Notes under the pieces: generated by a model | The model's input: only the letters and a program-made list of their open reading frames with translations | Told to the model about the DNA's origin: nothing | Databases searched by the model: none | Position numbers and translations under genes: made by a program | NCBI GenBank assembly: GCA_024230435.1 | Contig: JAAERL010000405.1 | Span: 1-62,977, forward strand | Length of the DNA stretch: 62,977 bases | Origin: Desulfobacteraceae bacterium | GTDB taxonomy: Bacteria > Desulfobacterota > Desulfobacteria > Desulfobacterales > Desulfosarcinaceae | Reading direction: 5' to 3' | In this document: positions 2,518-62,977 of the stretch, one piece after another | Layout: each line of letters opens with the position of its first letter | Position numbering within the stretch: position 1 is the stretch's first letter

Positions 2518-2692
2518 TTAGGCGATTGGCGGAAAAAATATAGCATCTTAACAGATACCATATTGGGCAGGATTTTTTTTCGTCTTCAAGGCGTGCCAAA
2601 GCCTGCATACTTAAAATATTTGGGCTTTGGCACAACGCCAAGCAGGCTCAAAACAAGTAAGAGTGGTATATTCGTATCTTCTGCGGCCCTTA
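2518..2692. mobile_element. Hairpin MITE-like element, copy A (diverged)
   Basis: The element body (2521-2689) begins GGCGATTGGCGG and is flanked on both sides by TTA (2518-2520 and 2690-2692). It contains the family core: TACCATATTGGGCAG, TCGTCTTCAAGG, and the paired TGCCAAAG / CTTTGGCA arms around a GCATAC-type loop. The right arm has diverged from copies B and C and resembles the end of the family at 31.7 kb. It lies 60 bp beyond the thrS stop codon, at the gene's 3' side. Confidence 0.75.
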
Positions 2693-4860: not shown

Positions 4861-6027
4861 GTGGGTCAAGTAAAAAATAGAAAACAGGAACAACTTCCCG
4901 ATTATGAAGTGATTACAACGGAACAAGACCTCACCGAATTTGTTCAAAAAACCGCAAAAGCCCAAATTGCGGCCATCGATCTTGAATCGGACTCAATGTA
5001 CCATTACAGGGAAAAAGTGTGCCTCATCCAAATGGCGGTCAACGGGTATAATGTGGTCATCGACCCGCTGCTGGTAAAGGATTTAAGCGCCCTGAAGCCT
5101 ATTTTTGAGGACCCGGCCACCTGTAAAGTGCTTCACGGCTCCGACTACGATATTCGCAGTCTGTATCGCGATTACGGAATTTCGGTCAACAATTTATTTG
5201 ATACGCAATTGGCCAGTATGTATCTTGGTTACAAGGAAACAGGCTTGGAATCGGTTGTCGCCCATCATTTCGGCATCGAACTGAACAAAAAATATCAAAA
5301 AAAGGATTGGTCCCAGCGGCCTCTTCCCGATGAAATGATCACCTATGCAGCCTTGGATGTTGTCTATTTGATACCCCTGGCCAAAATGCTGATAAAGAAA
5401 CTGAAAACAAAAAAACGCCTTGTCTGGGTGCAAGAAGAATGTGAACGGTTGAGCAAGGTGCGGCCCAACGACTGCGGCAATGATCCGCGCTTTTTAAAGG
5501 TTAAAGGCGCCGGACGGCTAGGGGCAAATCAACTGGCAGTGCTGGAAGCCCTTTTAAAAATGCGTGAAGAAATTGCCTGCCACAAAGACAGGCCACTGTT
5601 TAAAATTATCGGTAATATGACCTTGCTTAAAATCGCCACCGCAATGCCGGGCGGTTTGCGAAGTCTGGAAAAAAGTAATTGCTTGAGTGAAAAACAAATG
5701 GTCATGTACGCAAAACCAATTTTGCAAACGGTCAAGCAAGCACGCCTGCTCCCCAAAGAAGAGCTGCCGCGCTATCCGCGAACCAAGGCCCCGCGGTTAT
5801 CACCTAAAGTTCCCCTGAGGGTCCAAACTTTAAAAACCTGGCGCGATAAACAGGCTCAAAAAATGGATCTTGACCCTGCCCTGCTTTTCAACAAAGCCTT
5901 GATTCGGAATATTGCGATTGCAAAGCCCCTTACATTAGAAGAATTTTGCAAAATTCCGGGCATACACCAATGGCAGGTGAACAGTTTTGGCAAACAGGTT
6001 CTGAAAATTCTCAAAACAAGCTCTTAG
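4861..6027 (+). CDS. rnd: Ribonuclease D-like 3'-5' exonuclease with HRDC domain
   Basis: The N-terminal half is a DEDD-family 3'-5' exonuclease. Metal-binding motifs are visible as Exo I (AAIDLESD, near residue 38), Exo II (HGSDYDIRSL, near 90) and Exo III (TYAALDVVYLIPL, near 160), the last with the Tyr of the DEDDy type. A helical HRDC domain follows (about 215-300), and a second helical region completes the 388 residues, matching RNase D, which trims tRNA and other RNA 3' ends. The start is GTG with TAGGAG 10 nt upstream. The stop codon TAG (6025-6027) coincides with the start of a repeated terminus also present at the RNB nuclease stop, at 33881 and at 41547. Confidence 0.93.
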   Translation: MGQVKNRKQEQLPDYEVITTEQDLTEFVQKTAKAQIAAIDLESDSMYHYREKVCLIQMAVNGYNVVIDPLLVKDLSALKPIFEDPATCKVLHGSDYDIRSLYRDYGISVNNLFDTQLASMYLGYKETGLESVVAHHFGIELNKKYQKKDWSQRPLPDEMITYAALDVVYLIPLAKMLIKKLKTKKRLVWVQEECERLSKVRPNDCGNDPRFLKVKGAGRLGANQLAVLEALLKMREEIACHKDRPLFKIIGNMTLLKIATAMPGGLRSLEKSNCLSEKQMVMYAKPILQTVKQARLLPKEELPRYPRTKAPRLSPKVPLRVQTLKTWRDKQAQKMDLDPALLFNKALIRNIAIAKPLTLEEFCKIPGIHQWQVNSFGKQVLKILKTSS

Positions 6028-6038
6028 AGCCTGTTTGG
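6024..6038 (+). repeat. Element-terminus motif TTAGAGCCTGTTTGG at the rnd stop codon
   Basis: GAGCCTGTTTGG directly follows TTA inside the rnd stop codon. The same word follows TAA at the RNB nuclease stop (24546-24560), occurs with one extra T at 41547-41562, and is present inverted as CCAAACAGGCTC followed by TAA at 33881-33895. It behaves like one end of a mobile hairpin element abutting a TNA target. Confidence 0.6.
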
Positions 6039-16650: not shown

Positions 16651-18414
16651 TTAAAATAAACCACTGACCTTTCCTGTCTCAGGATCTACATCAATGCGGC
16701 GGAAGGCCGGGTTGGAACCGGTTCCGGGCATCAGGCTTATGGTTCCTGCGCACGGGCAGAGGAACTTGGCGCCAGAGTAAATTAAAATGTCGCGAATGGG
16801 TAAGCGCCATCCCTTGGGAACGCCTTTTTTGACCGGATCATGGCTCAGGCTCAAGTGTGTTTTAACCATCATGGTTGCAAAATCCGCATATTTCGGATCA
16901 TTTTCCAGCATTTCGGCCTTAGCTGCTGCAGCAGACTCCCAATCAACGCCGTCAGCGCCGTAAACTTCCTTGGCAATGATTTCAACGCGGTCGCGCAGTT
17001 TCATTTCCAGAGGATAGAGGAAGTCAAAGTCGTTTTTGTCTTTGCAGGCATCGATTACCGCATCGGCAAATTCCAAGGCGCCATCACCGCCGAGCTCCCA
17101 ATGCTTAGATTCGGCGCAACGTGCTCCGGCGGCCTCGGCGGCCTTGCGGACCAGGGCGCACTCGGCATCGGTATCCGTATAGAAACGGTTGATGCAAACC
17201 ACCGGATTGATTCCGGATTTGCGGATAACGCCGATCATGTGCACCATGTTTTCGATGCCGTTTTCCACCAGACCCAGGTTTTCCTTTTGGTATTCTTCGG
17301 GCAAAGATTTACCCGGAACAACTTTAGGGCCCCCACCGTGCATTTTCAACGCGCGAATGGTGCTGGTCAAAACAGAGACGTGGGGTTTGAGGCCGGAGAA
17401 GCGGCATTTCACGTTCCAGAATTTTTCAAAACCGATATCGGCGGCAAAACCTGACTCAGTGACATGGTAGTCAAACAGCTTAAGGCCAACGCGATCTGCG
17501 ATAATGGAACTCTGACCGACAGCGATGTTGGCAAATGGGCCGGCATGAACAAAGCAGGGTTGATACTCGGCGGTGCACATCAGAGTAGGATTAATGGTGT
17601 TGCGCATGAACGCCGCCATGGCATTGCCGACTTCCAGGTCTTTGCAAGTAACCGGTTTACCGCTCTTGTCAAAGGCAACGGTAATGTTGTTAATACGCTC
17701 TTTGAGATCGGCTAAGTCGGTGGCGACAGACAAGATGGCCATAAGTTCAGAGCCTACGGCGATACCGAACTTGCTTTGCATGGTAAAACCGTCAAAACGG
17801 CCACCGAGGCCGATGACGATATTACGCAAAGCCTGGGCGCAAAAATCAATAATCCAACCAAGCTCAACCTTGGTCGGATCAATATTTAACCGGCGCATAC
17901 CGGTCAAACGCTTAAGTTGTTCGTCATTGTAGTTACGCTCGTGCTGCATGCGTGCTGTCATGGCGACCATGCCCAAATTATGAGCGTTCATGATATCATT
18001 GATATCGCCGGTCAAACCCAGAGAAAACTCCGTCATTGGAATCAGCAGGGAGTTACCACCGCCGGCGGCAGTTCCTTTGACGTTCATGGTTGGCCCGCCT
18101 GAAGGTTGACGCAAAGCGCCGCCGACATTGACGCCACGCTTGCCAAGACCTTCCATGAGTCCAACAGAAGTAGTACTTTTGCCTTCACCCAATGGTGTTG
18201 GGGTAATTGCGGTAACCTCAATGTATTTTCCATCGGGTTTGTCTTTAAGGCGATCGATCACCTTTAAAAAATCAACTTTTGCCAACCGGCCCATGGGAAG
18301 AATTTCTTCGGAATTAAGGGCAAGTTTTTCACGCCAGTTATCTGGGGTGGGCATGTTTTTTTCCGCTTCTTCGGAAATCTGCCAATCCGCCATTTTTACT
18401 GCATCATAGGGCAT
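16651..18414 (-). CDS. fhs: Formate-tetrahydrofolate ligase
   Basis: This enzyme makes 10-formyl-tetrahydrofolate from formate, ATP and tetrahydrofolate in the cytoplasm. In sulfate reducers and acetogens it is the second step of the methyl branch of the Wood-Ljungdahl pathway, and it also feeds C1 metabolism. The 587 residues match the family, with the nucleotide-binding motif [11 protein letters not shown] near residue 72 and the conserved [12 protein letters not shown] and [12 protein letters not shown] segments. The start ATG has a perfect GGAGG ribosome site 7-8 nt upstream. The gene appears monocistronic: no folD or metF is adjacent. Confidence 0.97.
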
Positions 18415-18645: not shown

Positions 18646-18685
18646 ACTAAAGCAGGTCGCCCAGAACTAAAGCAGGTCGCCCAGA
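18646..18685. repeat. 20-bp tandem duplication spanning an ABC transporter stop codon
   Basis: The unit ACTAAAGCAGGTCGCCCAGA occurs at 18646-18665 and again, identical, at 18666-18685. On the minus strand it contains the last codons (GDLL) and stop of the downstream ABC gene, so a second copy of the gene's end lies directly behind the first. Confidence 0.95.
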
Positions 18686-20667
18686 GAACTTTGCAGTGTT
18701 AACTTGGCATAAAGCCCGCCGAGTTCCATCAATTGAGAATGAGTGCCCGTTTCAGCAATGCAGCCTTGTTTGACCACGGCAATCTCGTCGGCTGTCCTGG
18801 CGGTAGAGAGCCGGTGAGCCACCAGAATTGATGTACGCCCGGCCATTAAATTGGCCAGCGCTTCATGTATGGCGGCTTCTGTCTGGGAGTCAATGTGCGA
18901 TGTCGCCTCATCCAGCAATACCAATTCCGGCTCGCGGGCCAAAGCTCTTGCGATGGTCACAAGTTGGCGTTCTCCGGTAGAAAGGTTGGTCCCGGCCTTT
19001 TCCAGAGGTGTATCCAATCCTTCGGGCAGCCGGTCCACCAAATGGCTGCAGTTGGCTGCTTCGATGATCCGCTGCACGTCTGCCTGATCAACAGTATCAG
19101 GGTTTTCAAAAATATTCCGGCGTAAAGATCCTGAAAAAACAACGGGGTCCTGGGGCACCCAGGCGGTCATTTGCCTGAGCTGTTTGATCTTTATTCCGCG
19201 CAGATCCTGCCCATTGATCAAAATCCGGCCCTTGACCGGATCGTAGAACCGCAGGAGCAGACCTAAAAGGCTGGTTTTACCGGAACCGGTTGGTCCCACA
19301 AGGGCCAATGTCCGGCCGCTTCTGATTTTTATGGAAACATTGCGCAGCACGGGTTCGCCCTGTGTGTAAGCGAAATCAACCGATTCGAACTCAATCGAAT
19401 CGATCCGATTCAAAGCAGGCGGGCTTCTTTTGATTACATCTATCGGCGCCAAATATTGCCGTTTGTCCAAAAGCGCGAAAATACGTTCAGCCGATGCCAT
19501 GGCGTTTTGTAAAATATTGTAATTTTCTGCCAAATCCCGCAAGGGACGGAAAAACATTCTCAGATAGGTAATGGCTGCAACAAGTGCTCCTAAAGTCACC
19601 GCGCCGCTGATCACAGATCTGGCGCCGTAGAGAATTAAAATCGCTGTAGCCAAAATTCCAAGCACCTCGACAAGAGGCATAAAAATGGCGAAAATATGAA
19701 TCTGTTTCATGCCCAGACGATAATTTTCAGCATTTAAATTTTTAAAGTCCTGAAAATTATTTTCCTCCCTGCCAAAGGTTTGAATGGTCTGGATACCGTC
19801 TATGCTCTCGGCCATACGGCTGTTGATTTGGGCCACTTTGACCCGCAAAGCCCGGTAAACATGCCTTAGATGAGCGGTAAAATGAATTACCGTCCAAACG
19901 ACGATAGGCAATACTGCAAACCCGGCCAGGGCGAAACGCCAGTTTAACACCATTAAAGCCGCGGCAATGCCGATCAGTAAAAAGAAATCCTTAAAGATCA
20001 TGGCTACAAATGTTGTAAACAATTCATGCATGTTTTGGATATCGTTGGTTACCCTGGTAACCAGACGCGCCACGGGCTGGCGATCAAAAAAAGCCATGCT
20101 TTGGCTCTGGATATGATCAAACAAATGCATCCGCAGATTATGCATGATTTTATGACCGGCGTATTCCATGATCATGCGCTGAACAAAGACCAATCCGAAA
20201 TCAAGGGCAATGACAATAAAAAAGACAAGCACCACCAGTTTCAACCCGTTGAGTTCTTTTTCTCTCAACCTGGGCAGAACCTGTTTGGGCAACCGGTCAA
20301 GGTCTGATAAGGCGATATAAGCTTTTGTCCCTTGACGTATGAAAAGCCGCGGGTAATGGTCAACAATCTTTCGCAAGTCCTGATTGCTGATATCTATGGG
20401 AACATAGCGCTTTGCTCCCCGATTGCCGTCGGTTGCTTGAGCTAAAGCAGGCCCGGCGCCCTGCTCAGGCACAATAAACCGGTCAATGGCCATTTTACTG
20501 AAATAAGGCAAGGCCAGTTCCAAAACGGTAATGGCCACGACAAGCAAAACAGATCCAATCAAAAGACGTTTGAAAGGCCGTAAAAACGGCAGCATTCTTT
20601 TTAAAAGGGCCAGATCATAAGGTTTGCCCATATGGTCTTCTTCGGTGTATCCGTAATCAAATCGCAT
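18667..20667 (-). CDS. Heterodimeric ABC exporter subunit with canonical ATPase site (MdlB/SmdB-like)
   Basis: The protein fuses a six-helix exporter membrane domain to a nucleotide-binding domain, with Walker A GPTGSGKTS, signature LSTGERQ and Walker B LVLLDEATSHID carrying the catalytic Glu. It pairs with the gene just upstream, which has a degenerate site. A polar insertion of about 90 residues between the first two membrane helices (about residues 60-150) is longer than usual and should lie outside the membrane. I chose the ATG at 20667, which has AGGAG 7 nt upstream and overlaps the partner's stop by 11 nt; an ATG 33 nt earlier lacks a ribosome site. Substrate is unknown; relatives export lipids or drugs. 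Confidence 0.9.
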   Translation of the reverse strand: MRFDYGYTEEDHMGKPYDLALLKRMLPFLRPFKRLLIGSVLLVVAITVLELALPYFSKMAIDRFIVPEQGAGPALAQATDGNRGAKRYVPIDISNQDLRKIVDHYPRLFIRQGTKAYIALSDLDRLPKQVLPRLREKELNGLKLVVLVFFIVIALDFGLVFVQRMIMEYAGHKIMHNLRMHLFDHIQSQSMAFFDRQPVARLVTRVTNDIQNMHELFTTFVAMIFKDFFLLIGIAAALMVLNWRFALAGFAVLPIVVWTVIHFTAHLRHVYRALRVKVAQINSRMAESIDGIQTIQTFGREENNFQDFKNLNAENYRLGMKQIHIFAIFMPLVEVLGILATAILILYGARSVISGAVTLGALVAAITYLRMFFRPLRDLAENYNILQNAMASAERIFALLDKRQYLAPIDVIKRSPPALNRIDSIEFESVDFAYTQGEPVLRNVSIKIRSGRTLALVGPTGSGKTSLLGLLLRFYDPVKGRILINGQDLRGIKIKQLRQMTAWVPQDPVVFSGSLRRNIFENPDTVDQADVQRIIEAANCSHLVDRLPEGLDTPLEKAGTNLSTGERQLVTIARALAREPELVLLDEATSHIDSQTEAAIHEALANLMAGRTSILVAHRLSTARTADEIAVVKQGCIAETGTHSQLMELGGLYAKLTLQSSLGDLL

Positions 20668-22399
20668 TTTCAAGCTCCTGAAGCGCATGCACCCGGGCAT
20701 AATATCCCTTGGCGGTCACAAGTTGCTGATGGGTTCCATGTTCAACAATCCGGCCCTGATCCAGACTCACAATAACCGATGCCTTGTGAATGGCTGATAG
20801 CCGGTGTGACACGATAAGTACAGTCTTTTGACGGGACAACCGTTCCAATGTTTCAATAATATGCCGGCCTGTGCGTGCATCCACTTGACTGATAGGATCA
20901 TCGAGCAAAAAGATGGGCCGGTCCGTCAACAGCGCCCGGGCCAAAGCAATCCGCTGTTTTTGCCCTCCGGATAACAAGACGCCTTTTTCACCAGCGAGGG
21001 TGTCAAGCCCGGAAGGAAAAACATCGATGGTTTCGGCAAGACCGGTATCCTTGATAACTTTGGAAAGCTTTTGCTCTGTGCAGCCGGGGCAACCGAACGC
21101 AATATTGTCGCGCACCGTACCGGCAAAAAGAAAAGGTTCCTGGGGAACATAGGCGATATGACGCCTCAAATCCGATAACGAATAATCGCGGATATCTTTG
21201 CCATCGAGGCTGATACGGCCCTGGCTCACATCGTATAAGCGGGGCACAAGGCTCAAAATGGTGCTTTTACCGCTTCCAGGCGGCCCTACGATCCCCGTGA
21301 TCGCGCCAGGGGAAACTTCCAGTGAAATTTTATCCAAAACCTTGCGCTGTTTTGATCCTTCATAGGAAAAACAAACATCTTTGTAAACAATCCGACCTTT
21401 TACTCGTGACAACGGCACGGCATTGGGTTGCTGCCGGATATCGGACTGCTTTTCCAGAATCACTTTCAGACGATGCAAGGAGGCTCCCCCCCGCTGGATT
21501 AAATTGGCCACCCAGCCCATGGCCATCATCGGCCAGGTCAACAAGTTTAAATAACCAATAAAAGCAACAAAATCACCCGGGGTAATTTCATTGAGAATGG
21601 CCCGTTTTCCACCCAGTAATAGCACCAGGGCGACGCTTATATTGGTCATTAGCAGCATAAAAGGAAAAAAAGCGGCGGTAACGGTTACAAGCTTGATGTT
21701 TTCAGATACATAAATTTGCGAGGCCCCGCGAACAGCGCTTTCAGAATTTTTTTCTCCAGCGTGGGCCTTGGTCAGCCGAATGGCGCCAAACCTCTCCCGA
21801 ACCGTTTCGGTAAGCTCTGAAAAAGCCTCCTGGACGGATTGATACCGCTGAAACATGCGTTTTCCGAGCAGCCGGGTACCCAGAACAATCAGCGGCATGG
21901 GGATGAGCACATACAAGGTCAGTTCAACATGAATGTAAAGCATAAAGCCAATGGCCGATAGTCCGAGCACCACCGCATCGTTAAAAGCCACCAGCCCCAT
22001 GCCGGCCGCCATGCGGACCTGGGTGATATCATTGGTGGCGTGGGCCATTAAATCGCCGGTCTTTGTTTTATCGAAATAAGACGCCGAAAGGGTCTGTATA
22101 TGGTGAACAAGCCGATTGCGCAATCCTTCTTCGACCCGCCGGGCCATTCCCAAAAGGCACCTGCGCCAAATATATCGGAACAATCCGATCATAATAGCCA
22201 GCGATGCAATCATCGATGCGTAATAAACCAAGGCGCCCATGCCGGCTTTGTAAAAGGTCAAAGCATCAATTACTCCTTTGATGGCCCGGGGTATGAGCAG
22301 TTGAAAAAAATCAACCAAAATCAGGGAAAACAGCCCAAGCGAAATACGGTATCGATGTGATCTGTAATAGGGTCTAATCAGTCCAAAAGCTTTTATCAT
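20657..22399 (-). CDS. Heterodimeric ABC exporter subunit with degenerate ATPase site (MdlA/SmdA-like)
   Basis: This 580-residue exporter half has a membrane domain (about 1-310) and a nucleotide-binding domain with Walker A GPPGSGKST, signature LSGGQKQRIALARAL and Walker B FLLDDPISQVD. The catalytic Glu after Walker B is replaced by Asp, typical of the degenerate site in heterodimeric exporters such as TM287/288 or MdlAB. It is the promoter-proximal gene of a two-gene operon and overlaps the partner by 11 nt, implying translational coupling and fixed stoichiometry. It is divergent from the RNB nuclease gene, so the 170-bp gap between them holds both promoters. Confidence 0.9.
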   Translation of the reverse strand: MIKAFGLIRPYYRSHRYRISLGLFSLILVDFFQLLIPRAIKGVIDALTFYKAGMGALVYYASMIASLAIMIGLFRYIWRRCLLGMARRVEEGLRNRLVHHIQTLSASYFDKTKTGDLMAHATNDITQVRMAAGMGLVAFNDAVVLGLSAIGFMLYIHVELTLYVLIPMPLIVLGTRLLGKRMFQRYQSVQEAFSELTETVRERFGAIRLTKAHAGEKNSESAVRGASQIYVSENIKLVTVTAAFFPFMLLMTNISVALVLLLGGKRAILNEITPGDFVAFIGYLNLLTWPMMAMGWVANLIQRGGASLHRLKVILEKQSDIRQQPNAVPLSRVKGRIVYKDVCFSYEGSKQRKVLDKISLEVSPGAITGIVGPPGSGKSTILSLVPRLYDVSQGRISLDGKDIRDYSLSDLRRHIAYVPQEPFLFAGTVRDNIAFGCPGCTEQKLSKVIKDTGLAETIDVFPSGLDTLAGEKGVLLSGGQKQRIALARALLTDRPIFLLDDPISQVDARTGRHIIETLERLSRQKTVLIVSHRLSAIHKASVIVSLDQGRIVEHGTHQQLVTAKGYYARVHALQELENAI

Positions 22400-22568
22400 T
22401 ACATTAATTGCCTTAACGGTTCTATAAAATTAACAATCCGCCAATCCGTCTATTTTCACGGCTGGTATGGCTTTATTTTTGTTGCCATATTTTGATACCA
22501 TAAAACGCAACAAAAGGACGGTCAATTTATTTTGACTTTAAATCAAGTGGTTGTTAAGTAAGAATGTT

Positions 22569-24548
22569 ATGGAACCTGGCTCTATTGTAGAATTCATCGA
22601 TCAGCAAAAAATTATTTGCGCGGTTGTATTGGAAACCAAAAAGATGCGGTTGCGCTTGCTGACGGAAACTAATCGGGAAGTCAAACTCGCTGCCGCGCGT
22701 GTGTCTCATCGATCCGGGTGGCCTATGCAGTTGCCCCAAAGCCGTGAAAAACTGGTTAGCTCCCTTAAAACGATTGGGGTTCAAAGGCGAAAAGCAAGCG
22801 AACAAATTGATATTAAAGAGTTATGGGACATCCTGCACAGTGAGCAGGAATGGATTGACCTTCCAACCATGACGGATTTTTGTTTTCCCAATGAACCGGA
22901 TGACAATCATCAGGCAGCGGTCATCCGGGCCTTTTTCAGGGATAAAACTTATTTCAAATTCCAAACGGACCGTTTTTTTCCCCATACCGCTGAACAAGTC
23001 GATCAGATCATCACCCAAAAACAAGCCGCGGTGCAAAGGGAACAATTAATTGATCTCGGCGGCCTGTGGGTTCAAAAAGTCCTGAAAAATCAAAAATGCG
23101 CCGAGCCCCTGGAAAAACGGACCATTATCGAAACGCTGATATCCTATTACTTATATGATAAAGAAAGCTCTCACAGCCAAGCGGCTAAAGCCATCCTGAA
23201 AAAGGCTGCTGCTGGATCAATGTCTGCCATTTTTACATTTCTGACCAAAATTCAGGTATGGCGCCCCAATGAAAATACGGACCTTTTGCGCTATGAGGTA
23301 CCCATTGAGTTTTCCAAAAACGTTCAAATCGAAGCCGAAACATTATGCGCGTCTTTGATCAAGATGGAAGATTACCGCCACGATTTGAGTCAAACGCCTG
23401 TGATCACCATTGATGGTCCACAAACAAGTGATTTTGACGACGCCTTGAGCATCAGGCGGCAGGATGATCACTTTGTACTGGGCATCCACATTGCCGATGT
23501 CGCTCATTTCATCGCCAAGGGCAGCTCCCTGGACCGGGAAGCAAGGAACCGGGCCAGTTCGATTTATATGCCGGATCAAAAAATCCCCATGCTGCCATCG
23601 TGTCTTTCCGATGATATCTGCAGCTTGAAAGTCGGCCATGCCAGACCCGCTATCAGTACCCTGGTGCGCATTAATGAACGGGCCGAAATTTTGGATTATC
23701 AGATCGTGCCCAGTATCATTAAGGTGCACAGACAGCTAACCTACCAGGATGCGGATAATACCGCCAATGAAGACGAAGCCATCGCCGCCATGTTTGCCAT
23801 AGCGAAAAGCTATCGTTCAAAACGCCTGGACTCTGGCGCTTTGATCATCGACCTGCCGGAAATTTCCTTACGATTGAACAACTCTCAACCGCCGGAAATC
23901 AAAAAAACGGAAAGGGAAACCCCTGGACGCTTGCTTGTTTCTGAATTCATGATTCTGGCAAATGAATTGGCGGCCCGGTTTTTGGCCGAAAAAAAACTCC
24001 CGGCCATCTTCAGGGCCCAGCCCGATCCCCGGGAGCGGTTGTTCCAGCGTCAAGAAGGCACTCTTTTTCAAAATTGGATGCAACGCAAACTTCTCAGCCG
24101 CTTTGTCCTGGGGGCAAACCCGGAACCCCATAGCGGCCTTGGATTACCATCGTATGTGACCTGCACCTCCCCAATCCGGAAATACACGGATCTTATTACT
24201 CAGCGCCAATTACATGCGGCCATGGGACTGGAATCCGCATATGACAAAAAACAGATCGAAAACATCATCACATCCCTGGACCAGACCGTAGGACAGGTGG
24301 GGCGGCTGCAGTTCCGGCGTAATCGCTATTGGCTGTTAAAAGCCCTGGAAAAAAAGGTCGGTCAAAAGCAAGAGGCCATAGTGCTTAGCAAACGGCGCGA
24401 AGGCTATGCCATCCTGCTTCCAAATTATATGATCGAATGCAATTTATCCGGAGCGGAAGGCATCAAGCTCAAACCCGAAGACCCGGTCATGGTCACGATT
24501 CAACATGTCCACGCCCGTAATGACGTATTGACTGTTGTTTTTGGCTAA
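22569..24548 (+). CDS. RNB-domain (RNase II/R family) 3'-5' exoribonuclease
   Basis: The central RNB catalytic domain is clear (about residues 275-590), with the metal-binding run DGPQTSDFDDALS and the following HIADVAHFI and CTSPIRKYTDL segments; it degrades RNA hydrolytically from the 3' end. The N-terminal part lacks an obvious tandem cold-shock region and looks more like the shorter RNase II-type proteins of cyanobacteria and deltaproteobacteria. A short C-terminal S1-like stretch follows. At 659 residues it is shorter than RNase R. I prefer ATG 22569 to the TTG at 22551; neither has a strong ribosome site. The stop TAA (24546-24548) is directly followed by the repeated GAGCCTGTTTGG terminus. 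Confidence 0.88.
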   Translation: MEPGSIVEFIDQQKIICAVVLETKKMRLRLLTETNREVKLAAARVSHRSGWPMQLPQSREKLVSSLKTIGVQRRKASEQIDIKELWDILHSEQEWIDLPTMTDFCFPNEPDDNHQAAVIRAFFRDKTYFKFQTDRFFPHTAEQVDQIITQKQAAVQREQLIDLGGLWVQKVLKNQKCAEPLEKRTIIETLISYYLYDKESSHSQAAKAILKKAAAGSMSAIFTFLTKIQVWRPNENTDLLRYEVPIEFSKNVQIEAETLCASLIKMEDYRHDLSQTPVITIDGPQTSDFDDALSIRRQDDHFVLGIHIADVAHFIAKGSSLDREARNRASSIYMPDQKIPMLPSCLSDDICSLKVGHARPAISTLVRINERAEILDYQIVPSIIKVHRQLTYQDADNTANEDEAIAAMFAIAKSYRSKRLDSGALIIDLPEISLRLNNSQPPEIKKTERETPGRLLVSEFMILANELAARFLAEKKLPAIFRAQPDPRERLFQRQEGTLFQNWMQRKLLSRFVLGANPEPHSGLGLPSYVTCTSPIRKYTDLITQRQLHAAMGLESAYDKKQIENIITSLDQTVGQVGRLQFRRNRYWLLKALEKKVGQKQEAIVLSKRREGYAILLPNYMIECNLSGAEGIKLKPEDPVMVTIQHVHARNDVLTVVFG

Positions 24549-30859: not shown

Positions 30860-31597
30860 CTATTTGCCCAATAATTGTGAATTGCGTGAGTGTTTACGTT
30901 GTCTTGCTTTTTTCAATCTTTTCCAAAAAGGCTTACAGATAAAGCTGTTCTCATCGAGTTCACAAAGCTGATGAAACATGGGTTTTGTGACAGTAAAAGC
31001 AAGTATATCATGTGGCAGATATTGTCTCATTGCAATATCCGTTGCGCCGATGATAGCTTTGGGAATGTCCAGATCCTCAAATAATGCCGCCAGCATGGAA
31101 CATCCAGATCCAAACTTGGTGAAAACCTGCTGATTTTCGATAGTGGCGTTGTGGTATTCAGCTCCGATCATCAAAAAGCTGAGTTGATCGGGATTAACAA
31201 AAAAAGTAACCGTTCTGAGATAATCGTACTGGTCCTGTTTTAGAGGCCCAATCACTATAAACGGATGACACTGTTTATAGGGTTTTTGATTATCTAACCA
31301 TCGATTCATAATCTTAGGCGATGATTTAAGTCCTTCTTTGTTCACAAGAAAATTAACATATTCATCTCTGGGCATGGGTTCGGCGCCGCAAATCCAGTAA
31401 CCAGCCCCCATACAACTGAATTTCTCCCTGGAAACAAGAATTGACTCACCTTGTTGCCAATTAGCATAGGCTGAAAAAAAACAATGTTTCGGGCTGATGA
31501 AAGGTTCAAACGGTTTTATGTCAGGCACATCATAAAATCCAACAGGAGCAGCAGTTATGCCTGCAATTTGTAAAATGTTCTTCGCGTTTGGTTGCAT
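30860..31597 (-). CDS. DUF169 family protein
   Basis: The 245-residue protein matches the DUF169 (COG2043) pattern: APVGFYDVPDI at the start, REKFSCMGAGYWICG near residue 57, and FGSGCSMLAALFEDLD near 165. The conserved cysteines suggest cofactor or metal binding, but no member's reaction is firmly known to me. These proteins are frequent in methanogens and sulfate reducers. It is the first gene of a two-gene operon with the 140-residue protein. Confidence 0.8.
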   Translation of the reverse strand: MQPNAKNILQIAGITAAPVGFYDVPDIKPFEPFISPKHCFFSAYANWQQGESILVSREKFSCMGAGYWICGAEPMPRDEYVNFLVNKEGLKSSPKIMNRWLDNQKPYKQCHPFIVIGPLKQDQYDYLRTVTFFVNPDQLSFLMIGAEYHNATIENQQVFTKFGSGCSMLAALFEDLDIPKAIIGATDIAMRQYLPHDILAFTVTKPMFHQLCELDENSFICKPFWKRLKKARQRKHSRNSQLLGK

Positions 31598-31719: not shown

Positions 31720-31985
31720 CTTAGAATCTTAGATTTGGATTCGTTTTTAAGGCGCGCCGATGGGGTGCATACTAATTGATATATTAATTGTCTGTGCACA
31801 TTGACGCAACACAAAAAACGAATTTAAGAACAAGTAAAAGTGGTATATTCGCATCTTGCACGACCCTTATATGCATAAATCAGCATTTTCTTGCAAACTT
31901 AACACAAAAATTTTTAAAGCTGCAAATCTGTATACGCTTGCTTAGGCAATTTGCACGATATCTTCGTTGTGCTTAGCCAAATTGG
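31720..31985. repeat. Diverged hairpin element (third family)
   Basis: TTAGATTTGGATTCGTTTT, GGGTGCATACTAATTGA, CTGTGCACATTGACGCAAC, AAGTAAAAGTGGTATATTCG and CACGACCCTTA appear in order. The first words match the copy after the RNB nuclease gene (24.6 kb) and the last match the right arm of copy A (2.66-2.69 kb), which links this family to the 158-bp elements. Confidence 0.65.
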
Positions 31986-33709: not shown

Positions 33710-33867
33710 GGCGATTAGCGAAAAATAATGTTATGCCGCCTTTAGAATTTTTTTCGTTTTCAAGGTGTGCCAAAATCTGAATACTTTACGTATTCGGACC
33801 ATTGGTAAGCGTTAAGGAGGCTCAAAAAAGACAGGTGAGATGGGTACAATCCTGAACAAAAACCGCC
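33710..33867. mobile_element. Hairpin MITE-like element, copy F (diverged)
   Basis: The element is 158 bp, exactly the length of copies B and C. It begins GGCGATTAGCG and ends AACCGCC, with internal TTTTTTTCGTTTTCAAGG, GTGCCAAAATCTGAATAC and TACGTATTCGG. The flanks are TCA on the left and TTT on the right, so the target repeat has decayed or differs. It is followed 28 bp later by copy K. Confidence 0.7.
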
Positions 33868-33895
33868 TTTGATTAATATTCCAAACAGGCTCTAA

Positions 33896-34051
33896 GGGTC
33901 GCGGAAAAATTGTTTTGTCCAATTGGCGCAGGATATGGGCTCGTATTCAAGGCGCGCAAAGCCGTGCATATCGAGTATTCGCAGCTTTGCGCAACGCAGA
34001 AGACGAGTTGATAGACAAGTCAGTTGGGATAAAATATTTTTTCCGGGGCCC
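33896..34051. mobile_element. Hairpin MITE-like element, copy K, abutting the CBS gene stop codon
   Basis: The 156-bp body runs from GGGTCGCGGAAAAAT to TTTTTTCCGGGGCCC and is flanked by TAA at 33893-33895 and 34052-34054. Inside, GCGCAAAGCCGTGCATA and TATTCGCAGCTTTGCGC form the central arms. Its right terminal base plus the TAA target make the stop codon of the CBS gene (minus strand TAG, 34051-34053). Confidence 0.8.
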
Positions 34052-34503
34052 TAAGAGTTCAACAGCGTACGCAGCACATCTTCCTTGCCGATAATGCCCA
34101 CCAGCCGTCCGTCGTCCACTACCGGCAGGGTATGAAAGCCCTTGTCTACCATAAGGCCTGCGATTTTTTCGATTGCCGATTCGGAATTAACGGTTACTGG
34201 GTTTTCGGTCATTGCCTCACCAACGGTAAGAGCGGCTATTTTGCGTGCATCCTTTTCCAAATGTTTGGTGGAAGTGATCTGAATGTAGCTGTCCAGCAAC
34301 GTGATCAGGGTTGGAACAGGAGGCCGTTTATGTTGAGCTACCAGATCGCTCTGACACAACACACCGATTAGTTTTCCCTGATCATCGACCACCGGAGCGC
34401 CATTGATGTTGTTGTCCAGTAAAATTTTGGCTGCCTTCGTAAAGCCAGTCTTTGACGTTAGCGTTATCAGTTTAGTGGTCATGATATCTTTAGCTTTTAT
34501 CAT
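34051..34503 (-). CDS. CBS-domain pair protein
   Basis: The 150-residue protein is made of two CBS motifs (about 5-60 and 90-148), including APVVDDQGKLIGVLCQSDL and LPVVDDGRLVGIIGKEDVL. Stand-alone CBS pairs bind adenosyl nucleotides and regulate partners; no partner is encoded nearby. I chose ATG 34503, preceded by GGGGAAGG, rather than a TTG five codons upstream. The stop codon is formed at the junction with hairpin element K, so the original C-terminus may have been slightly altered by the insertion. Confidence 0.88.
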   Translation of the reverse strand: MIKAKDIMTTKLITLTSKTGFTKAAKILLDNNINGAPVVDDQGKLIGVLCQSDLVAQHKRPPVPTLITLLDSYIQITSTKHLEKDARKIAALTVGEAMTENPVTVNSESAIEKIAGLMVDKGFHTLPVVDDGRLVGIIGKEDVLRTLLNS

Positions 34504-34760
34504 ATATGCCTTCCCCAAAAAATCATGTCAGGCCCTGAATGGCAGGTCTTTGAGTCAACACTATCCGTTGGCCGGAACAAGACAATTATATAAAGGTTGC
34601 GGATAGCAACGAGTTGTCAGGATGATATTGCTTAATCAACCGGCGGTACACAGATCGAATCTGATTGGCGCCGACTTTGAAAAAAATACAAAAAATGGCA
34701 TAACCGCTTTTGCCCATGACTGCCTTTATAGCTTTATTTTTGCATAGTTAGTGTTCATTG

Positions 34761-37986: not shown

Positions 37987-38150
37987 TTAGGCGATTGGCG
38001 GAAAAGAATATACCATATTGGGCAGAATTTTTTTTCGTCTTCAAGGCATGCCAAAGTTTGCATACTTAACGTATTTGGGCTTTGGCATAACACACAAGAC
38101 GGAAAAAAAGACATGCAAGATGGTATATTATTTAACTGTAAATCGCCTTA
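37987..38150. mobile_element. Hairpin MITE-like element, copy B (intact)
   Basis: The 158-bp body (37990-38147) is flanked by TTA on both sides. Nested complementary segments run from the ends inward: GGCGATT / AATCGCC, AATATACCAT / ATGGTATATT, TTTTTTTCGTCTTC / GAAGACGGAAAAAAA-like, ATGCCAAAG / CTTTGGCAT, around an imperfect CATACTTAACGTATT loop. It differs from copy C at only three positions. It lies upstream of the glycosyltransferase start and beyond the end of the secreted-protein gene. Confidence 0.9.
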
Positions 38151-41546: not shown

Positions 41547-41790
41547 TTAGAGCCTGTTTTGGAAACCGGTTCTTATACGTTTCCATTTTCATTTTTAATA
41601 GCGTTTTCCAGCTCAACCGCTATATCGGCCCAATTTACCCAATATCCTTTGCTGCGTGCGAAAAATTTTATCCTCGCAATACTAACCTTAGGCATATCTA
41701 TACAGATACCCGTAGTAAAATTTTTCGCACGCCCCGGTCTCGAACAAATTTTTCTATTTCGCAGTTGAACACTATCTATGAATGGATCAA
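41547..41790. repeat. Hairpin element of the second family with perfect 17-bp core arms
   Basis: GCGTGCGAAAAATTTTA (41654-41670) pairs perfectly with 41716-41732. Read on the minus strand, the words AAATTTGTTCG, CGTGCGAAAAATTTTA, GGGTATCTG and TATTGCGAGGATAAAATTT match the copies at 34.8 and 51.36 kb. TTAGAGCCTGTTTTGG at 41547-41562 is the terminus also seen at the rnd and RNB nuclease stops. Confidence 0.75.
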
Positions 41791-43660: not shown

Positions 43661-44848
43661 ATGGATCCATTATCAATATCCGCAGACACCTTGTTTTTGG
43701 CGTTGGAAAACCAGTCTTATCAAGCGGAAACGTTGGCAACCCAAGCATTATCCAATGGTATTGACAAATACATGGATGAAGACTACGAGGCAGCCGCCGT
43801 TGAATTTAAACGCTCATTGGGATTGTCTCCTTATTCCCAATATGCAGTCGACGCCACAAAACACCTCGCACAGACCTATCTAAAATTGGATGAAACAGAA
43901 AAAGCCATTGATGCATATAAACAAACGCTGAAACTCTTGCCCCAGAGAGATGATTTACACCTTGCGTTGGGCAACCTTTTTATGGCCGAAGACCGTTCGG
44001 GTGAGGCCGTTGAATCATACGAACAAGCGGTGCGCATTTATGACGACCCGGTCAATCGTTACGCCTTGGGACAAGGGTATTTAAGTACCGGGCGATATAA
44101 CGATGCGGAAAATCAATTTAATAAAATCATCAGCAGGAGCCCGGATAGCTATAGCGGTTACTTTGGGTTGGGTCAGACACTTAGTGCTCAAAAAAAATAC
44201 ACTGCGGCTATCGAGGCGTTTGAGAACGCCCTGAGTAGAAACCGTGATTTCAATGATGCCTATGTTGAAATGGGATATGTTTATGCAAACGCCGGTAAAA
44301 TGGAAAAGGCCGAAGATATTCTCACTACATTAGAGCATAAAGATCCGGATTTGGCTTCACTGCTGAAAGCCTACATACAAAAAACAACTAAACCTCAAAT
44401 CACGACTGCCTGGGCCACAGGGACGTTTCACTTTTACCTGCCGGCAAAAACTCAGATTTCAGATATGAGCTCATATTTGTCTGAACCAAATGCCAGTCAT
44501 AGTTTAACAATGGAATTTCAGTTCAACAAAGAAATGAATAGAGAAACGGTGGAAGATCCTTTTAATTGGACTATTAAACGGGCTTCGGGCCTCGGACCGG
44601 CCGAAAACTATAATTACGGTCTGGGCATTGAAGATACGGAGGTTCAGCTCAGTTTATACCCTTCCGATGTATATTATGACTCAGACAAACTAACGGCAAC
44701 GGTTCGTTTTAGCATCAATCAGAACGCAGAGGCCAACGCAACAATAGACCCTGTCCATATTGTTTTCTCATTCAACGGGCAAGATGCCGATGGAAACCCC
44801 ATGGACCCCAAATTCGATCAATACATGGGATTTTCAGGTCATTTTTAG
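43661..44848 (+). CDS. TPR-repeat protein with C-terminal beta domain
   Basis: About six tetratricopeptide repeats occupy residues 25-235 (for example AAAVEFKRSLGLSPYSQYA, EAVESYEQAVRIY, AAIEAFENALSRN), giving a protein-binding scaffold. A beta-rich domain of about 140 residues follows (PQITTAWATGTFHFYLP to the end), possibly Ig-like. No signal peptide or membrane anchor is seen. GAGG lies about 12 nt before the ATG, rather far. The last codons (GHF and the stop) fall inside hairpin element E, so the natural C-terminus may have been changed by that insertion. Confidence 0.8.
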   Translation: MDPLSISADTLFLALENQSYQAETLATQALSNGIDKYMDEDYEAAAVEFKRSLGLSPYSQYAVDATKHLAQTYLKLDETEKAIDAYKQTLKLLPQRDDLHLALGNLFMAEDRSGEAVESYEQAVRIYDDPVNRYALGQGYLSTGRYNDAENQFNKIISRSPDSYSGYFGLGQTLSAQKKYTAAIEAFENALSRNRDFNDAYVEMGYVYANAGKMEKAEDILTTLEHKDPDLASLLKAYIQKTTKPQITTAWATGTFHFYLPAKTQISDMSSYLSEPNASHSLTMEFQFNKEMNRETVEDPFNWTIKRASGLGPAENYNYGLGIEDTEVQLSLYPSDVYYDSDKLTATVRFSINQNAEANATIDPVHIVFSFNGQDADGNPMDPKFDQYMGFSGHF

Positions 44849-45015
44849 AAAATGGGGATATAACATCTTTAAAGATACCATATTGGGCTTAGATTTTTTT
44901 GTTTTCAAGGCGTGCCAAAGTTTGCACACTTAACTTATTCGCAGCTTTGGAACAACTTAAGAAGGCGGAAAAAAATATAAATAAGACATTATAGTCTTGG
45001 ACAAAAATCGCCTAA
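44837..45015. mobile_element. Hairpin MITE-like element, copy E, overlapping the TPR gene stop
   Basis: The body (44837-45012) starts GGTCATT and ends AATCGCC, followed by TAA (45013-45015); the left flank is TCA. It shares GATACCATATTGGGC, TTTTCAAGGCGTGCCAAAG and GCACACTTAAC with copies A-C. The TPR stop codon (44846-44848) lies inside it, and the stop of the convergent SPOR gene lies 12 bp beyond its right end. Confidence 0.8.
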
Positions 45016-55030: not shown

Positions 55031-55074
55031 GCTCCAGGGCAAAACCGCTCGCCCTGGAGCTTTTCAATTTTTTT
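55031..55074 (+). terminator. Rho-independent terminator of the M28 peptidase
   Basis: GCTCCAGGGC (55031-55040) and GCCCTGGAGC (55051-55060) form a perfect 10-bp stem with a 10-nt loop, followed by T-rich sequence. It ends directly at hairpin element C. Confidence 0.9.
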
Positions 55075-55236
55075 AGACGATTGGCGGAAAAGAATATACC
55101 ATATTGGGCAGAATTTTTTTTCGTCTTCAAGGCATGCCAAAGTTTGCATACTTAACGTATTCGGGCTTTGGCATAACACAGAAGACGGAAAAAAAGACAT
55201 GCAAGATGGTATATTATTTAACTGTAAATCGCCTTA
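55073..55236. mobile_element. Hairpin MITE-like element, copy C (intact), encoding the end of a methyltransferase
   Basis: The 158-bp body (55076-55233) is flanked by TTA on both sides and differs from copy B at three positions. Its right end lies inside the leftward methyltransferase gene, whose last codons (AIYS and stop TAA) are read from the element. It directly follows the peptidase terminator's T run. Confidence 0.9.
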
Positions 55237-55775
55237 GCCGCAAGGCAAGCCACATGGCTGGCTTTATGGCCAGGTTGAGCAGGCATTTCCTCATAATAAA
55301 GAATATACAAAGGCAAAAACGCCCGTAACAGCTCGTTTGGACGCAACAAATAATCACGGCTTCCGGGTTGCTGCGCCACAGGTTCCAGCTCCACAAACGT
55401 TTCAAAGATCAGCAATCCGCCCGCACGCAATCCTTCAAGAATCAAAGGAAACAACCGGCGCTGCAGAAAATTTATATTAATGATGAGATCATAGGTATCG
55501 GGCGCAATATCAAAAAAATCCAAATCAGCGCAAATAGCGTTGATACCTTCATGGCGCCCACTGAATTTTAGCAAACCCGTATCTGAGATATCCACGGCAT
55601 CAACCTTGAATCCCTGCCTTGCAAGAAACAGCGAATTGCGGCCACTGCCCGCGGCAATATCCAGCGCCCTGGCCTGGTTGACCGGCGAAACAAATTTTCT
55701 CAAAATGTCCGAAGGCTTATCGCCCTTTTTCATGTCATTGTGTTTTTCATTCCATTTTTCACGATCAGACTTCAA
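55218..55775 (-). CDS. Class I SAM-dependent methyltransferase (TehB-like)
   Basis: The 185-residue protein has the SAM-binding motif ALDIAAGSGRNSLFLA near residue 38 and the acidic motif VDAVDIS near 58, with DTYDLII near 92 as the post-I region. This matches small class I methyltransferases of the TehB type; the substrate is unknown. Its last four residues and stop are supplied by hairpin element C, so the native C-terminus may have been replaced. It converges on the M28 peptidase. Confidence 0.85.
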   Translation of the reverse strand: MKSDREKWNEKHNDMKKGDKPSDILRKFVSPVNQARALDIAAGSGRNSLFLARQGFKVDAVDISDTGLLKFSGRHEGINAICADLDFFDIAPDTYDLIININFLQRRLFPLILEGLRAGGLLIFETFVELEPVAQQPGSRDYLLRPNELLRAFLPLYILYYEEMPAQPGHKASHVACLAAKAIYS

Positions 55776-62823: not shown

Positions 62824-62977
62824 TAAGGCGATTTCTGTTAAAGAATATACCATCTTGTATGTCTTTTTTCCCGTCTTGTGCGTTATGCCAAAGGTGCGAA
62901 TACGTAAAGTATGCAAACTTTGGCACGCCTTGAATACGAAAAAAAATTCTGCTCAATCTGGTATATTCTTTTCCGCC
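62824..62977. mobile_element. Hairpin MITE-like element, copy D (inverted, cut by window end)
   Basis: After TAA (62824-62826) the body starts GGCGATTTCTGTTAAAGAATATACCA, written here as the reverse of copies B and C, with TTATGCCAAAGG, GAATACGTAAAGTATGC and CTTTGGCACGCCTTGAA in order. It lies beyond the giant protein's terminator and runs off the window. Confidence 0.88.

Follow-up and report, generated by a model that had tools for sequence, protein, structure and literature searches.

Placement of three types of MITE-like mini-transposon relative to stop codons and gene ends in a Desulfobacteraceae draft genome

In a stretch of 62,977 nucleotides of Desulfobacteraceae DNA (hereafter the window, which is the entire contig C404 of a 6.13-Mb draft genome of 1238 contigs), five genes were noticed to end at or within a short repeat element. 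This raises the question of whether such elements seek out stop codons, are retained there as useful hairpins, or owe their position to their target and to what the genome tolerates. Here we describe three element types from one genome and use matched null models to gauge how far the target triplet and tolerance behind genes explain the coincidence of mini-transposons with stops.

Three element types, their target and their possible mobiliser

The repeats in the window belong to three element types, F1, F2 and F3, which are MITE-like, non-autonomous mini-transposons: they are short, gene-less and present in high copy number, possess terminal inverted repeats (GGCGATT..AATCGCC and others) with G as the first base at both ends, and are flanked in all three types by a 3-bp target-site duplication, TAA or TTA. 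No called genes were found inside elements, a weak test with a gene finder whose minimum is about 57 codons. F1 extends from GGCGATTGGCGG to AATCGCC and is mostly 157–187 bp long; its 5' terminus occurs 424 times genome-wide (at most two mismatches) versus 10 times for a reversed control pattern. F2 starts with GAGCYTGTTTGGGAA and spans lengths between 23 and about 160 bp, and F3 starts with GGGTCKYGGAA, its complete pairs measuring about 150–180 bp in nine of ten cases and about 80 in the other. At three loci (L032, C1166:24583; L060, C162:4086; L051, C8:5025), F2 is reduced to about 23 bp, that is, scarcely more than two termini, with TAA or TTA on each side. Several draft contigs terminate inside F1 (the window at 62827–62977, the starts of L039 and L054, and the end of L068); F1 probably breaks the assembly, so that counts of complete copies are lower bounds. 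Among relatives, 6 of the 40 genomes searched (own genome counted) contain an F1 match, and a second genome (G019) has 84 termini versus 18 for the control.

Identical 3-bp flanks were found in 64 of 82 complete F1 copies of a first sample (39 TAA and 25 TTA). Among F1 terminus pairs with identical flanks (retrieved with a loose 7-base pattern), 126 of 163 had TAA or TTA, as did all F2 (19/19) and F3 (10/10) pairs, these having been preselected for identical flanks. The consensus of the insertion target is YTWAR. The duplications thus bear out the proposal of the initial annotation that these are mobile elements with a TWA target; its broader formulation, a TNA target that includes TAG, was wrong, given that the targets are TAA and TTA and that TAG arises from TTA followed by the G of the element.

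A 3-bp TNA target duplication is characteristic of the IS5 family (IS1031 group), and the TAA and TTA of F1, F2 and F3 conform to this rule; unlike IS5-family insertion sequences, all three lack a transposase. The genome contains six PF01609 matches, and contig C541 carries two partial IS5-family transposase copies (NF033580, PF13340). The sequence common to these two copies begins with (A)TAA followed directly by GAGCGTGTCTGAA, close to the GAGCCTGTTTGGGAA of F2, whereas the ends of F1 (GGCGATTGGCGG) are unlike it. On the basis of its termini, an IS5 origin of F2 is likely; for F1 and F3 we infer such an origin from the target alone, and mobilization would presumably have involved an IS5-type transposase acting in trans. 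No element combining F1 or F3 ends with a recognisable transposase was found in 2.27 Mb (37% of the genome). The screen for autonomous partners yielded 11 terminus pairs at 0.5–3 kb; the ORFs of seven pairs appeared host-gene-like by eye and none was transposase-like, two of the other four had no ORF of at least 150 aa, and two shared an ORF with an inspected pair.

Element boundaries and gene ends in the window

Coordinates of the elements and of the five genes are given in Table 1. Mosaics occur (the F3-like 3' end of copy A is shared with the element at 31732–31866), and pieces of F1, F2 and F3 lie adjacent to one another at 33710–34051, where one TAA is common to the F2 terminus and copy K.

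Table 1. Mini-transposon sequences and associated genes in the window (positions from its first nucleotide)
Feature	Positions	Strand	Basis and remarks
Copy A, F1/F3 mosaic	2521–2689	+	F1 5' end, F3-like 3' end, TTA duplication
rnd-like gene (3'-5' exonuclease with HRDC)	4861–6027	+	ORF, Pfam, homologues
Lone F2 terminus at rnd stop (TTA-GAGCC)	6027–6038	+	Sequence
RNB-domain ribonuclease gene	22551–24548	+	ORF, Pfam, homologues
Lone F2 terminus straight after RNB stop TAA	24549–24560	+	Sequence
F3-like mosaic element	31732–31866	+	TTA duplication
F1 copy, decayed	33710–33867	+	Flanks TCA/TTT
F2 terminus GAGCCTGTTTGG	33881–33892	-	Adjoins TAA
F3-type copy K	33896–34051	+	TAA duplication 33893–33895 / 34052–34054; last base completes CBS stop; entered in the regression as F3, register -1
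CBS-domain gene	34051–34518	-	Stop TAG = target TA + element G
F1 copy B	37990–38147	+	TTA duplication; gene 3' end 62 nt away
F2-like terminus GAGCCTGTTTTGG after TTA	41550–41562	+	Sequence
TPR gene	43661–44848	+	ORF, Pfam; ends at or in copy E
F1 copy E	44837–45012	+	5' end decayed, start uncertain; right flank TAA
F1 copy C, 158 bp	55076–55233	+	TTA duplication 55073–55075 / 55234–55236; nhmmer 179 bits, sequence
Methyltransferase gene	55218–55775	-	ORF, Pfam methyltransferase matches, homologue C-termini; last four codons and stop in copy C
F1 copy truncated by contig end	62827–62977	-	Profile match

The five reported coincidences are largely real: those at the methyltransferase, CBS, rnd and RNB genes stand, and the one at the TPR gene is plausible only. 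Copy C does encode the end of the methyltransferase gene, whose stop (55218–55220, - strand) lies 13 nt inside the element, which supplies A-I-Y-S and the stop. Eight homologues terminate two to six residues past an AIK motif (read as AIN in one homologue and as GIK in another; compared by eye), and the window protein ends four element-coded residues past the matching AAK. Joining the flanks in silico yields a 203-residue frame with a tail that is absent from these eight homologues. The CBS stop was likewise correctly described as built from copy K and its TAA target: on the gene strand, TA comes from the target and G pairs with the last base of the element. For the TPR gene, the claim that copy E holds the stop agrees with one alignment, in which the element starts at 44837 after TCA and includes the TAG at 44846–44848, and disagrees with the profile match, which starts only at 44873; the flanks of this copy are unequal (TCA versus TAA). 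Judged from match coordinates only, 27 of the 28 best TPR matches extend to residue 392–395 of 395, and 23 CBS matches of at least 54% identity extend to residue 152–155 of 155, a reach that fits putatively native ends for both proteins.

The remaining two cases are lone F2 termini and not complete elements. The RNB stop TAA (24546–24548) directly precedes GAGCCTGTTTGG, as had been noted, and the next inward-facing match is at 30923. The rnd stop TAG (6025–6027) is indeed at a terminus GAGCCTGTTTGG (next inward-facing end at 17854; at most two mismatches), but the two overlap by one base rather than following one another, the stop being made up of the TA of TTA and the initial G of the terminus. 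The C-termini of all 14 RNB homologues fall no more than one residue from that of the window protein, and those of 13 of 14 rnd homologues match the end of rnd in the window, the exception (L189) having an altered tail; given these shared end positions, nothing was supplied at either gene, and insertion struck an end that was already native. The tail of rnd (6012–6038) itself reads like an F2 end facing outwards (GAGCTTGTTTTG, - strand), TTA and GAGCCTGTTTGG; GCTC-TWA-GAGC junctions of this kind are also seen at some of the other F2 copies, and the homologues suggest that the rnd tail is native. Elsewhere in the window, a perfect 20-bp tandem duplication (18646–18685) lies at the 3' end of the gene at 18667–20700 (- strand), its second copy covering the stop.

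At the genome-wide rate reported below, 2.7 cases would be expected in the roughly 14 elements of the window (our own tally of elements and lone termini), with P(≥5) = 0.11, or 0.06–0.18 for 12–16 elements. It is conceivable, if rather doubtful, that the five cases are a chance cluster over an ordinary background, a reading compatible with the one that we favour; however, this background is itself shifted towards gene 3' ends, so that chance accounts for the window and not for the genome.

Placement across the genome

Insertions were analysed in 1,945,260 bases (38 contigs) and in a later held-out set of 322,229 bases (17 pieces), together 2.27 Mb or 37% of the genome; the sampled contigs were long ones and F1-bearing ones and not a random draw, and 14 very short contigs were excluded. 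A home-made dicodon finder supplied the gene calls. The first set contained 127 F1, 19 F2 and 10 F3 complete elements and the second 17, 3 and 2, and empty sites were rebuilt in silico by removing the element and one copy of the duplication. In the first set 134 of 156 elements, and in the second set 17 of 22, were inserted at TWA between two called genes; the others were dropped, being coding, at contig ends or without TWA on the side used. Stop overlap was scored where the target is the stop codon or overlaps it in the register TTA-G. Insertions were compared with all intergenic TWA sites under uniform, target-weighted, arrangement-matched and same-region nulls. The uniform null was not used alone, as YTWAR context and gene arrangement matter, and the same-region null is conservative in short gaps where the stop is the sole site.

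Across both sets, 24 of 151 targets overlapped a stop, against 10.6 expected with target weights, 14.4 when gene arrangement was also matched (P = 0.009) and 21.9 within the same region (P = 0.29). The first set contributed 19 of 134, with expectations of 7.1 (uniform) and 9.9 (arrangement-matched; P = 0.005), rising with target weights to 9.7 (P = 0.005), 13.0 (arrangement-matched; P = 0.055) and 16.0 (same region; P = 0.19). In the held-out set, 5 of 17 overlapped a stop, where the weighted uniform null expected 1.0 (P = 0.002), the arrangement-matched null 1.6 (P = 0.016) and the same-region null 5.8, a high value because those gaps are short. Relative to sites 1–60 nt downstream, the insertion rate at stops was 1.09-fold in the first set, 4.27-fold in the held-out set (resting on five and three insertions) and 1.30-fold in both. 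A regression over 22,379 TWA sites gave a ratio of 1.08 (95% interval 0.51–2.34) for stops versus sites 1–30 nt downstream, the odds ratios being 1.67 (0.50–3.52) for stop overlap, 1.55 (0.59–2.82) at 1–30 nt and 1.34 (0.50–2.30) at 31–60 nt. At present power, stops are thus not special among gene-end sites; a preference for them by a factor of up to about two is compatible with the data.

These counts temper several of the initial claims. The genome-wide comparison of element boundaries with stops that had been suggested as a check matches random placement under the region-matched null, as a refutation would, and departs from it when all intergenic TWA sites serve as the null; a preference for stops as such is not upheld by the downstream ratio of 1.08 or by the same-region expectation. 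In the first set with its elements in place, the stops of 21 called genes coincide exactly with an element boundary and those of five fall inside an element; four called starts lie inside elements and two called genes span one. The notion that elements supply gene ends therefore describes a rare event (5 of 156 complete elements), and at RNB and rnd the homologues end likewise. That insertion at a stop is tolerated was in turn correct, given that TAA is duplicated or TTA followed by G restores TAG.

The general shift towards gene 3' ends is firmer than the excess at stops. Convergent gaps received 39 of 151 insertions against 18.1 expected (P = 3e-6) and divergent gaps 23 of 151 against 41.4 (P = 5e-4), and in the first set coding DNA contained only 11 of the 155 usable sites, although 71% of TWA sites are coding (P about 1e-63). 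In the regression, the odds ratio for convergent gaps was 1.96 (1.11–3.35); that for divergent gaps (0.72; 0.43–1.10) and the near-start terms were not significant, and the divergent deficit was absent in the small held-out set (4 versus 4.6). An excess was observed 61–120 nt upstream of called starts (28 of 134 insertions; expected 18.9 under the weighted uniform, 15.5 under the arrangement-matched (P = 0.0006) and 20.5 under the same-region null (P = 0.016)), which does not fit simple promoter avoidance, and sites 61–150 nt behind stops were in deficit under the same-region null (17 versus 28.2). Such placement is expected if elements are tolerated downstream of genes and eliminated upstream, with some results fitting untidily. 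We infer that the 3' bias stems from purifying selection, which an insertion bias could mimic.

Explanations and parallels in other bacteria

We consider it likely that target preference and tolerance behind genes explain the stop coincidences. The elements target YTWAR, with duplication of TAA or TTA; under this reading, copies that land in coding DNA or divergent gaps would mostly disappear and those behind genes would persist. A TAA stop is itself a good target, the duplication of which leaves the gene intact, and TTA overlapping a stop gives TAG because either end of an element starts with G. Coincidences with stops would then follow without stop targeting or a selected role of the RNA. 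Counting against this reading are the 24 overlaps versus 14.4 (P = 0.009), the held-out 5 of 17 versus 1.6 with its 4.27-fold rate, the excess 61–120 nt upstream of starts, the non-significant divergent and near-start terms, the missing divergent deficit in the held-out set and the lack of an autonomous partner for F1 or F3 in the sequence screened. The two stop counts, together with the 10.6 of the weighted uniform null, are also what favours a transposition machinery that directly prefers stops or gene ends, for instance because it responds to the structure of terminators or to supercoiling, or is coupled to transcription. Such a preference is nevertheless unlikely, given that there is no excess over neighbouring 3' sites (1.08 at 1–30 nt, 1.30 at 1–60 nt) or over the same-region null. 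We regard as highly improbable that the YTWAR target and G-starting ends are an evolved stop-safe design that always leaves an in-frame stop and makes gene ends a refuge.

The initial annotation also suggested that the elements add a transcript-protecting hairpin, that is, one placed after the stop that protects the mRNA 3' end and is kept by positive selection. A hairpin was demonstrated for F1, and the very stable fold of copy C (-61.9 kcal/mol, z -9.6 on the + strand; -50.2, z -7.3 on the - strand), the better folding of the + strand in 100 of 127 F1 copies and the bias towards 3' ends all agree with such a role. However, a selected RNA hairpin should exhibit more G-U than A-C changes on the transcribed strand, plus compensation, and neither was found: departures from Watson-Crick pairing comprised 90 G-U and 96 A-C in 53 short F1 copies (double changes: 9 compensated, 9 broken) and 69 G-U and 53 A-C in 58 long ones (10 compensated, 25 broken). 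These 111 of 127 copies exclude 16 of other lengths; RNAalifold on all 127 together had returned only three pairs, the length variants producing a gappy alignment, and was rerun by length class. Compared with the nearest gene upstream whose 3' end lay within 100 nt, element orientation was not significantly biased (23 same, 35 opposite; P = 0.15), nor was orientation in tandem gaps (42 to 28; P = 0.12). Moreover, the excess extends to 60 nt, and F2 (2/19) and F3 (2/9) likewise match stops. There is no measurable RNA constraint on F1 copies; a protective hairpin is accordingly unsupported and very unlikely, and the F1 hairpin looks inherited from the source element rather than maintained. Judged from the sequence and fold of copy C, F1 also lacks the layout of an intrinsic terminator, in which a U run would directly follow the stem: a T run precedes and an A run follows the apical hairpin (on the 5' and 3' arms, respectively, inside the stem).

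Rfam models at gathering thresholds produced no matches in the window, and the three types were not met in the literature, which was searched by words and not by sequence; as far as such searches show, they are new members of a known phenomenon. Placement of mini-elements at stops and gene ends is already known in other bacteria. The base-paired mini-elements BOX, RUP and SPRITE of Streptococcus pneumoniae are described as overrepresented between convergent genes and interpreted as parasites that are tolerated downstream of genes; a BOX copy at the very 3' end of a gene is reported to encode its stop in 36 cases, with no strong indication that the gene is truncated (PMC3049150). The placement pattern is that of F1, F2 and F3, in another species and under other names, and the likeness rests on placement. 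A MITEAba12 copy is described as fused once to a gene, giving a premature stop (PMC6382973). A review (PMC10969869) describes intergenic locations as the usual ones and mentions QMITE2 in 3' untranslated regions. This Coxiella burnetii element, of 150–190 bp, is reported mainly from 3' untranslated and intergenic regions; according to its authors, QMITE1 and QMITE2 overlap gene 3' ends by 1–50 bp with no significant change in protein mass, and QMITEs sit at the 3' end in all affected functional genes (PMC5896051). QMITE2 differs from F1, F2 and F3 in that its direct repeats are longer and variable (7–11 nt) and in carrying a REP, the target of IS1111.
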